Below are positions 749 through 41,743 of a stretch of DNA of 53,945 nucleotides, piece after piece (position 1 is the first letter of the stretch; each line of letters begins with the position of its first letter). The notes beneath the pieces are model-generated. The model was not told the DNA's origin. It saw only the letters and a program-made list of their open reading frames with translations, and searched no databases. A program made the position numbers and the translations under genes. Source of the stretch: Candidatus Altimarinota bacterium (GTDB lineage Bacteria > Patescibacteriota > Gracilibacteria > BD1-5 > UBA2023); assembly GCA_024709505.1 (NCBI GenBank), contig JANJWP010000007.1, positions 1 to 53,945 of the forward strand, written 5' to 3'.

Positions 749-977
749 AAAAAACGCCCGGCAAATGCCAGCGCTTCGGTTCCGCGCGGAAATCGCGGAA
801 AGGTGCCACCGAGGCTTCGGGCGTTCCGCGTTCGGCTACGGAAGCGCGAAGCGGGCACCCTTCTTAATTTCGCCCGGTAACGGGGGCTCCCGGAGGGGTC
901 TACTACGTCCGCGAAGCGGACGGTTCTTCCCTCGGCATCGCGGGTGTTGGCCGCTCGAACGCCGTTCTTCTTCTTGC
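749..977 (-). promoter_or_regulatory. T-box-like tRNA-Asp-sensing leader of aspS
   Basis: The ~245-nt aspS leader carries an antiterminator-like fold at 774-814: helix CCTCGG/CCGAAG, a 7-nt bulge TGGCACC (802-808), then a perfect helix TTCCGCG/CGCGGAA. TGGNACC in a 7-nt bulge between two helices is the T-box signature, and N = C is what pairs with the G discriminator of tRNA-Asp. Further upstream, a hairpin at 893-933 (GAGGG/CCCTC outer, CGTCCG/CGGACG inner) has an internal loop with GAC, an Asp codon, at 898-900. A stem using CGGGCGTT followed by TTTTTT (749-754) gives a terminator just before the start codon; its 5' partner AACGCCCG lies at 818-825. Mutual exclusion of the two folds and a full Stem I were not proven. 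Confidence 0.62.
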
Positions 978-3372: not shown

Positions 3373-5802
3373 TTACTCCCAAATCGTCTCCGATACGGCG
3401 GAATATCCCTTCGTCATGTCGTGTCCGACCATTTTCTGATTGGAAATGGTATAGAGCACGTCGTCGAGATACATGTTTCGGATAACGAAGGATTTATAGT
3501 AGTTCCAGATATGGCTCGCGAAGTATTCGCCGTCGGTCGAAGATTCGTAGCAGTACGGGGGAACGTAGGAAATCGAACTCGGGCAGTATTCGCCACCCCC
3601 GATGACCTTTTCGCACTTTGGCGCGACGGTGGGCTTGGCGTAGCGGGCACATTCCTTTTGGCGCTCGGCCGCGATGTCTCCCTTGACGATGTGCGAGAGG
3701 CGGGCCACTTCGACAATCGCCCCCTCGTTTACGGAGATGACGAGCGTTCCTTGGAAAGCGTCCTTGGAACGGTAAACGTCGTTCGGGTCACCGGCGCTCT
3801 CCATGACGGTCGCCGGAAGCATGAGGAGCTTTTTGGAAGCGTTCCAAGTAAAGAGCTTGGGATTCCAAAGCGCGTCGCTCGACGATCCAACCGAACCGAT
3901 GGTCAACGTCTTCAGCTGCTTGGGATTTTTTACGTCGGAAACATCGTAGAGATCAACCTTCAGCCCGGCGTTTTGAGTGCCGCCCCACTGATTGGTCTTG
4001 GTATCGTATCCGAGTCCGATAAGCTTGCCCGGAGCGTAAGGATGGAGATAGACCGAGTATCCCGGAATCTTCAGTTCGCCTTCGATCTTCGGGTTTTTCG
4101 CGTCAGCCACGTCAATGACAAAGAGCGGGTCGATGCGTTCGAAGGTGACGAGATAGAGTTTGTCTCCGATGAAGCGCGAGGATTGGAAGGTTTCGCCCGG
4201 GGCAATGTTGGCAATGGTTCAGAGGAGCGAGAGTTTCGAATCGAGAATCGAGACGCGGGTGGAAGGCTTTTCGCCCTGTTCGCTCGTAACGATGCGGAAG
4301 GTTCCGTCAGTGCCCTCGTCCATCGAATACTTGTTCAAGGGGGTTCCCGGAATTACCGCGGTTGCGGCGTATTTGACGGAAGTTCCGGAAATCGAAAACT
4401 TATGCGCGAGGGTTTCGAATCCCGCGTTCCAGAACGGCATGATGCACCGAGCGAAATCCGGACACTTCCACGGCGTTGGGGAATAGAGTTGGGAAGTGAC
4501 GAAAAGCGATTTTTCCGTCATCATGATTTCGCCAACGTCACCGAAGAACACCTTCGATTTGGTCTTCGCTTCGGGATTGGCCAAATCGATGACCGAGAGG
4601 GTGGTGAAAGTCGGTTGGAAGGAATATTTCTCAAGGGTTGCCGAATCCGGAAGGACATACTCGACGTCGGTACACGAGGCGGCATCGCCCGATTCGAGAC
4701 GGTAGGGCATGCGTTTTCCGTTCAAAAGGAAATTCGCAGTTCTTCCCGAATCCGAAGACAGTTCGATCTTTTTCGGCATGACCTTCTTAACGTTGAAATC
4801 CTTGTCGATCTTCGCGGAATCGAGTTCCGGAGTCGTGCCGGACTTGAGTCCCGAAACCGAACGGTAGTAGCGCTCGTAAGGAAAAGAGAACTGCGCGTTC
4901 GAAAGAAGGTAGAGATGGTTCCCTACGCGACGACTTTGGCTTACCGCTCCGTCGATTTGCAGGAATCGGTCGATTTTCGGATTGGCCGGGTCGCGGACGT
5001 CGTAGACAACGACGACCGACTTGCTCGCGCGGTCAAACCAGTAGAAATGCGGATTGCGGAGTTCTTGGTACTTGGTCGCAAAAAGCACGAGCTTTCCGTC
5101 GGCAAGGTAGATTTCGGGGTTTCCGTAAGATTCCGGAACCTTGATCTTCTTCACGATGGACACGTTTTTCGGATCGCGGACGTCGGTAACGTAGATGCGG
5201 TGGTCTTCGGAATTGTAGAAATACGAGTGTGATCCGTCGGTTTTTACGATTTCGGATTCATCAACCCCTCCGAACTGGACGTTGGTTTGGGAGAAATCCT
5301 TGGCACCTCCGCCTCCGGCGTTCGGGGCTGGCGACGAAACCGCCGATACGGGGGAAGCGTCCGAGGATTTCGAAATCTCCGATCCGGAATCGCGGGACAT
5401 GACGGCATCCTCCATGAGCACGGGATACCCATAGTGCCCGCGGGGATTCTTTTTATAATAGTCGGCAATGAAGTCCGAGAGAACGTCTTCCATGTTCGAA
5501 CAGCTCGAAAACGACTTCACCGAGAACTCCGGGGCTTTGGCGGCCGTTCCAGTGGCGGTCTTTTCAAGGTCTTCGAGGGAAGTGTCTTCGTCGAGGCACT
5601 TGGGGGTGCCGGGGTTCATGCAGTACATCATGGTGCACGCGGCTTGTCCGTCGGAACCCACCGAACAAGTATTGCAACCGTCGTGGTACGACTTGCACTG
5701 CCCGAGGTTCACGCCGTTGACGACGACGTCTGCGGCGAAAACCGTCGAAACCGTAGCTGCGAGGGCCAAACCGAAGGCCCAGTGGAAAATGGAGCGCTTC
5801 AT
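3373..5802 (-). CDS. Secreted beta-propeller domain protein (COG4880-like)
   Basis: The 809-residue exported protein has a Sec signal peptide: MKRSIFHWAFG, a hydrophobic stretch, then VFA|AD near residue 23. The mature N-terminus is Cys-rich (QCKSYHDGCNTC, ACTMMYC). A Ser/Ala/Gly linker leads to the signature SQTNVQFGGVDESEIVKTDG. That motif matches the bacterial/archaeal 'secreted protein with C-terminal beta-propeller' family, which ends in repeated IYVTDVRDPKN / VYDVRDPANPK blades. The TGA at 4219-4221 (residue 528) reads as Gly and joins the last blades (VIDVADAKNPKIEG). The stop is TAA. The promoter TTGACT-16-TAAAAT gives a ~22-nt leader without SD. It is probably anchored to, or released from, the cell surface; the ligand is unknown. 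Confidence 0.88.
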
Positions 5803-18838: not shown

Positions 18839-19020
18839 GGGTTCGCCCACGGCTCTTCCTCGCCGCCGAATGCGGCTTCGGACGCGGAGGTCGCGAACCA
18901 AATCGTTGGTTCGCTCGAATGCTTCGCATCCGTCCTCCGTTCGAGCCCCGGCATCGAAAATCCCACGGAATCATAAAAATCCCCCTCCTTTCGGAAGGGG
19001 ATTTTCAATGATTCATGGTG
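18839..19020. repeat. Direct repeat copy B, abutting tRNA-Lys
   Basis: The partner of copy A. It carries an extra ~45 bp between the shared blocks, with two hairpins absent from A: GCGAACCAA-ATCG-TTGGTTCGC (18893-18914, perfect 9 bp) and a GAATGC-TTC-GCATCC hairpin. Its first bases GGGTTCGCCCACGGCTC are a degenerate version of the tRNA 3' part present in A. It ends at the tRNA CCA end. Confidence 0.8.
18974..19006 (-). terminator. Terminator of tRNA-Lys
   Basis: AAAATCCCC-TTCC-GAAAGGAGGGGGATTTTT downstream of the tRNA. Confidence 0.75.
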
Positions 19021-19091
19021 GGTTCGCCGGGGCTCGAACCCGGGACCTTCGCCTTAAAAGGGCGCTGCTCTACCGACTGAGCTACGAACCC
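19016..19091 (-). tRNA. tRNA-Lys (UUU), CCA encoded
   Basis: Cloverleaf: acceptor GGGTTCG/CGAACCC, discriminator A, encoded CCA. The D-arm is GCTCAGTCGGTAGAGC, the anticodon loop is CTTTTAA (anticodon TTT) and the T-arm is CCGGG-TTCGAGC-CCCGG. It is the only tRNA near the accessory block. Confidence 0.97.
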
Positions 19092-41665: not shown

Positions 41666-41743
41666 GGCGATCGTAGCTCAGTTGGTTAGAGCACCGGACT
41701 GTGAATCCGGGGGTCGAGGGTTCAAGCCCCTTCGATCGCCCCA
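41666..41743 (+). tRNA. tRNA-His (GUG), G-1 and CCA encoded
   Basis: Acceptor GCGATCG/CGATCGC with the histidine-specific extra G-1 (41666) facing C73. The D-arm is GCTCAGTTGGTTAGAGC. The anticodon stem-loop is CCGGA-CTGTGAA-TCCGG (anticodon GTG). The T-arm is GAGGG-TTCAAGC-CCCTT, and CCA is at 41741-41743. Confidence 0.97.

Follow-up and report, generated by a model that had tools for sequence, protein, structure and literature searches.

The locus analysed here raises two questions: whether a CPR bacterium that reads UGA as glycine controls its AspRS gene, aspS, through a T-box and, if so, which tRNA such a switch would monitor. The window, by which we mean the whole stretch of 53,945 nucleotides analysed, is one contig (C23) of a 1.17 Mb genome, here called G000, which is assembled in 33 contigs and 98% complete, and whose relatives by AspRS similarity mostly bear the name Candidatus Gracilibacteria. 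The reading of UGA as glycine is supported by TGA codons that lie in frame within aspS and gatB in genomes of the same family and order, and a tRNA with a UCA anticodon is encoded in G000. The window also carries genes for tRNA-Lys(UUU) (19019-19091, minus strand) and tRNA-His(GUG) (41667-41740, plus strand). The aspS gene is on the minus strand with its ATG at 731, and only its 5' part (1-731) is present, because the end of the contig cuts the gene and the rest lies on another contig; the start of contig C27 (2-139) overlaps the aspS sequence of the window at 100% identity. The first 243 residues of the product match the NCBIfam models TIGR00459 (328 bits) and PRK00476 (390 bits), as a bacterial-type AspRS.

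Architecture and conservation of the aspS leader

The leader spans positions 964-749 of the minus strand, and its 3' end is located 17 nt before the aspS ATG. Directly 5' of it is a promoter-like element (1011-984, minus strand), with TTGACT at 1011-1006, a 16-nt spacer, and TAATCT at 989-984. A TTGA-N15-19-TA...T match is found at most 70 nt upstream of 39 of 102 leaders, and the identical 16-nt spacing is seen in several relatives. A strong hairpin directly upstream of this promoter, AAAGGCGUCC UUCG GGACGCCUUUUU (1047-1020), is likely to be the terminator of the preceding gene.

In the MFE fold, the leader opens about 20 nt after the -10 box with an ultrashort Stem I of about 32 nt (964-933, minus strand), made of helices P1 (964-960/937-933) and P2 (954-951/943-940), both of which (helices 1 and 2 of our alignment) covary, with a K-turn formed by UUC at 959-957 and by GA at 956-955 facing GA at 939-938. 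Its 7-nt apical loop, CCAACAC (950-944, minus strand), holds the putative specifier AAC (948-946), followed by A945. The long Stem I with an elbow-binding double T-loop tip, which marks class I T-boxes, is absent from the window leader. G933 is at once the last base of P1 and the first of Stem II (933-893, minus strand), whose helix 933-929/897-893 (helix 3) covaries at 5/5 pairs, and in which AAGAA (928-924) faces AGUAGA (904-899) as an S-turn; the pattern AAGAA/AxUAGA is kept in leaders of both the aspS and the ileS type. A pseudoknot-like Stem IIA/B element follows (892-872, minus strand), in which CGG (892-890) pairs with CCG (883-881), an F-box-like CCGUUA occupies 883-878, and a GCCC loop can meet GGGC; helix 5, which belongs to this element, covaries, while the pseudoknot pairs were judged by eye. 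Relatives carry CCGUYA after Stem II, and two of them (L003 and L005) have exactly CCGUCA, which is the F-box consensus (PMC7583486). Within the linker and Stem III region (870-816, minus strand), the linker AAAUUAAGAA (870-861) is kept in relatives, and Stem III is variable, also in length.

The antiterminator (815-773, minus strand) rests on folds and on covariation of helices 6-8, and consists of A1 (815-809/779-773) and A2 (800-794/786-780), in the order GCCUCGG-UGGCACC-UUUCCGCG...CGCGGAA-CCGAAGC. The bulge UGGCACC (808-802, minus strand) is the 7-nt stretch between A1 and A2, is kept in relatives, and holds C805, which would face the discriminator base G73. The intrinsic terminator (776-749, minus strand; -13.0 kcal/mol) reads AAGCGCUGGC AUUU GCCGGGCG UUUUUU, and its 5' arm includes the 3' strand of A1, so that antiterminator and terminator are mutually exclusive in the window. 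The first-pass annotation had described a 7-nt TGGCACC bulge between two helices, a terminator before the start, and a short Stem I, and all three are borne out, the last as the hairpin directly upstream of the stem that carries a GAC triplet. Without constraints, the leader folds into Stem I, Stem II and the terminator; the MFE structure pairs the 5' strand of A1 with the upstream Stem III region and does not contain the antiterminator, as would be expected when no tRNA is bound. When forced, the antiterminator reaches -16.9 kcal/mol, versus -28.6 for the fold that competes with it over this region.

Several other genomes have a leader of like plan in front of aspS. From eight leaders, in three of which some variable loops had been shortened by pure deletion, we built a covariance model that matches 66 of the 77 genomes of the order, and many of these carry two leaders. 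Some genomes of the order, for example G002, G004 and G012, have no match to this model. Two of them (G002 and G012) bear an extra archaeal-type aspartate--tRNA(Asn) ligase, and the loss of leaders is patchy. With 73 leaders aligned, both bases have changed in 26 of 31 pairs, covariation of the kind that the first-pass annotation had proposed to look for in related aspS leaders, and 94.7% of cells are paired, as opposed to 30-51% with slid partners. This alignment was fitted to the model and is thus biased towards its structure; however, given the slid controls and how varied the pair types are, such a bias is insufficient to explain the covariation. Because the leader is kept upstream of aspS in other genomes, is matched by the model, and has accumulated compensatory changes, it is not a chance arrangement. 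Judged by comparative sequence analysis, the element is a real and conserved T-box with strong covariation, and the proposal that a CPR bacterium with UGA as glycine has a T-box in front of aspS is upheld by this conservation and by the terminator overlap.

Specifier, discriminator base and the candidate ligand

Which tRNA the leader would sense can be approached through the apical loop of Stem I. In a first alignment, this loop reads AAC in 32 of 33 aspS leaders and GAC in the other one, and AUC in all 40 ileS leaders; the remaining leaders add 11 with AAC and 20 with AUC. Among the 104 leaders of the order, those of the aspS type therefore have AAC (43) or GAC (one, L059, the sole aspS relative in the order with GAC in the true specifier loop) and a UGGC bulge, with one UGGU on an AAC leader, and AUC leaders, which belong to ileS operons, have UGGU. 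The apical triplet thus co-varies with the base of the bulge that would pair with the discriminator, C before aspS and U before ileS. In G000, tRNA-Asn and tRNA-Asp carry G73 and tRNA-Ile(GAU) carries A73, and the bulge base complements the discriminator of the specifier-matched tRNA, save for the AAC-UGGU exception. An ileS-like ORF is found downstream in 20/20 extended AUC loci, and G000 itself has an ileS-type leader (G000:C15:23777-23944) whose downstream gene matches TIGR00392 at 929 bits. Elsewhere in the phylum, valS leaders have GUC in the same Stem I loop. The specifier therefore fits the regulated gene (AUC with ileS, GUC with valS, AAC or GAC with aspS, AAC by way of an indirect Asn pathway), and its position is fixed by the fact that loop triplet and bulge switch together with the gene.

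These data bear on the first-pass reading of the element as a tRNA-Asp sensor, which took GAC at 900-898 as the specifier and C805 as the match to G73 of tRNA-Asp. The triplet is indeed there, in an internal loop, it is an Asp codon, and the bulge base does fit; however, tRNA-Asn also has G73, so that the bulge C cannot tell one tRNA from the other, and it is the apical loop, not 900-898, that switches with the gene. The triplet is part of the S-turn AGUAGA, as AGA plus a variable base, and is followed by C rather than by a purine. At this position, aspS leaders have GAA (24), GAC (7), GAU (1) or GAG (1), and ileS leaders have GAA (27), GAC (11), GAU (1) or AAU (1), a similar distribution in both types, and we rejected GAC 900-898 as the specifier. 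We thus hold it very improbable that tRNA-Asp is read through this triplet. A sensor of two tRNAs, in which AAC would serve tRNA-Asn and GAC would serve tRNA-Asp, in the manner of a known two-codon T-box, has in its favor that AspRS serves both tRNAs where AsnRS is absent and that the window leader contains both codons, but relatives do not keep the second codon, ileS leaders have it just as often, and each leader has one codon only in its specifier loop, which leaves this alternative with as slim a chance as the previous one. The most likely ligand of the aspS leader, rather than tRNA-Asp, is uncharged tRNA-Asn.

An AAC specifier in front of aspS would make sense if AspRS had a role in the supply of Asn-tRNA. 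No asnS match over the cut-off was obtained in any of the 77 genomes of the order, and gatB was found over the cut-off in 72 of them, G000 included. Weak asnS matches were considered as possible AsnRS genes and set aside, as the three strongest, when scanned, are archaeal-type aspartate--tRNA(Asn) ligases. The tRNA-Asn of G000 carries U1-A72, a pair that is required for the two-step Asn-tRNA pathway (PMC4206432). Since asnS is missing over the cut-off and gatB is present, AspRS presumably also charges tRNA-Asn, and Asn-tRNA is probably made by AspRS charging tRNA-Asn, followed by GatCAB; we infer that the AspRS of G000 is non-discriminating. By this route, uncharged tRNA-Asn would report that AspRS is insufficient. 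The leader would be expected to bind this tRNA, to be sensitive to its charging, and to bring about antitermination: with tRNA-Asn aminoacylated, by Asp from AspRS or by Asn after GatCAB, the antiterminator would fail, the overlapping terminator would form, and aspS would be shut off. With the structure, the covariation, the agreement of specifier, bulge and gene, the terminator overlap, and gatB without asnS all visible in the genomes, we are highly confident that this T-box, with its ultrashort Stem I, works by terminating transcription and regulates aspS according to the state of tRNA-Asn.

Output of the switch and its distribution in Patescibacteria

A terminator hairpin with a U-run that takes in the 3' strand of A1 is predicted in 94 of the 104 leaders (median -15.1 kcal/mol; 4% in shuffles), and a count based on the nearest U-run gave 53/104, an undercount, because the AT-rich hairpins hold internal U-runs. 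Such an overlap argues for transcription antitermination. The same T-box could act instead on translation, by hiding the start region in the way of actinobacterial T-boxes, and a short Stem I with an apical specifier is in fact found mostly in translational, actinobacterial T-boxes (PMC7583486). Against this stand, besides the shared A1 strand and U-tract, the lack of any Shine-Dalgarno-like motif from the terminator to the ATG in the window, and the other genes that in several relatives lie between the leader and aspS. The terminator overlap thus sets the leader apart from the translational output that characterises class II, and we give a translational switch very little credence. Transcription antitermination remains the output we favor.

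The first-pass annotation had suggested RF00230 as a check, and this model did not score the leader: an Rfam scan of window and leader returned no T-box and chance matches only, RF00230 found none in the G000 genome at E <= 0.001, and in none of the 353 class genomes did it exceed its gathering cut-off, with weak matches in 36. That the element is no T-box at all, but a common terminator or attenuator that happens to contain TGGCACC, is in keeping with this lack of an RF00230 match and with an unremarkable single-sequence folding energy (z = -1.39), but is next to impossible to reconcile with covariation and with specifier, bulge and gene agreement across 104 leaders.

Our second covariance model (R2), in turn, matches 106 of the 353 class genomes and 111 of 380 genomes drawn evenly from the phylum Patescibacteria, counts that are probably lower bounds, as stricter filters were used in these searches, and in which the weakest matches (E near 1e-4) need care. 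For gene context, we retrieved loci outside the order, 40 from the class and 21 from the phylum, and those listed precede ileS, valS, or an aspS/asnS-like gene (at least three). Three loci (L193, L196, and L202 at 3804-3973; families f30 and f16) have the loops GAC, GAC and AAC, respectively; the aspS/asnS-like gene that they precede is a different, short one, so that a synthetase that is not orthologous seems to be under the same logic.

G000 has a third T-box-like leader, before glyS (G000:C15:57644-57824, plus strand; L307), with relatives in L308-L316 and L321-L323. The bulge of the glyS leaders, UGGAACC, fits U73 of all three tRNA-Gly-like tRNAs of G000, the UCA one included, and in most of these leaders a GGC or GGA with an A after it, placed in a hairpin loop, is the candidate specifier; no Stem II was seen in them. 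Such a leader before glyS, in an organism where UGA means glycine, merits its own study. T-box-like leaders that RF00230 matches weakly were also noted in other families of the class, upstream of thrS-like (L317 and L325), trpS-like (L202, 174-379), argB-like (L318), argF-like (L319) and thrC-like (L324) genes, whose products, judged from N-terminal sequences alone, resemble ThrRS, TrpRS, acetylglutamate kinase, ornithine carbamoyltransferase and threonine synthase. At the ileS locus of G000, IleRS (L139:1522-5250; 1243 aa) contains a histidine-phosphatase/phosphoglycerate-mutase-like stretch at residues 698-874, and between the leader and ileS there is a small ORF (L139:976-1506) that carries the motif EIERKFL, looks CYTH/triphosphatase-like to the eye, and has no NCBIfam match; ORFs resembling it occur in several relatives.

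On the whole, there is a good chance that transcriptional T-boxes with an ultrashort Stem I are a common, perhaps ancestral, way of controlling synthetases throughout Patescibacteria, which escaped notice because long-Stem-I leaders underlie the reference model, and that Gracilibacteria use a tRNA-Asn-sensing aspS switch, as a readout of the indirect Asn pathway, together with ileS and glyS switches.

Relation to known T-boxes

The literature presents T-boxes as chiefly Gram-positive elements (PMC2494555, PMC7778990), and the survey table of phyla in PMC2494555 lists no CPR or Patescibacteria phylum. Our literature search, which covered open-access papers, found none that connects T-boxes with CPR, Patescibacteria, Gracilibacteria or Saccharibacteria, and no experiment on any CPR leader, and with this coverage priority is not certain. 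The T-boxes at ileS, gly and trp genes of Deinococcus and Chloroflexi (PMC2494555) resemble the present ones in lying outside Firmicutes, in being few per genome, and in their association with ileS and gly synthetase genes.

In Clostridium acetobutylicum, aspS/gatCAB are preceded by a two-codon T-box. That system shares with ours a T-box tied to tRNA-dependent Asn synthesis and to an AspRS gene; unlike it, the Gracilibacteria leader has a single specifier, and its second codon is not conserved. With the Firmicutes transcriptional T-box (RF00230, class I), the leader shares the UGGNACC bulge, the competing intrinsic terminator, the Stem II S-turn, and Stem IIA/B, but it lacks the long elbow-binding Stem I and stays below the RF00230 cut-off in all 353 class genomes. 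In its apical specifier, K-turn, S-turn, F-box and third-position C, the leader agrees with the short-Stem-I T-boxes of PMC7583486. In detail, it resembles the class II leaders of actinobacterial ileS (Nocardia farcinica, Mycobacterium tuberculosis), with which it has in common the apical specifier, the short Stem I with K-turn, the purine 3' of the specifier, the Stem II S-turn, Stem IIA/B with F-box, and the bulge between A1 and A2 (PMC7583486). Those leaders, however, are translational and sense tRNA-Ile, whereas the Gracilibacteria leader has a terminator overlap and AAC before aspS.

We therefore regard the leader as what appears to be a new T-box variant: transcriptional, with an ultrashort Stem I, sensing tRNA-Asn before aspS, and widespread in CPR. 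If T-boxes are present in such a large part of the sampled Patescibacteria, the picture of their distribution and age would change, CPR bacteria would gain a protein-free amino-acid response, and the AAC specifier before aspS would link regulation to Asn synthesis on the tRNA. For annotation, the covariance model obtained from these leaders can be used in cases that RF00230 misses. Transcriptional T-boxes generally need a long Stem I with an elbow-binding tip (PMC7583486), and an ultrashort Stem I joined to transcriptional switching, set against this need in the co-transcriptional race (PMC7583486), could make these leaders a minimal model system.
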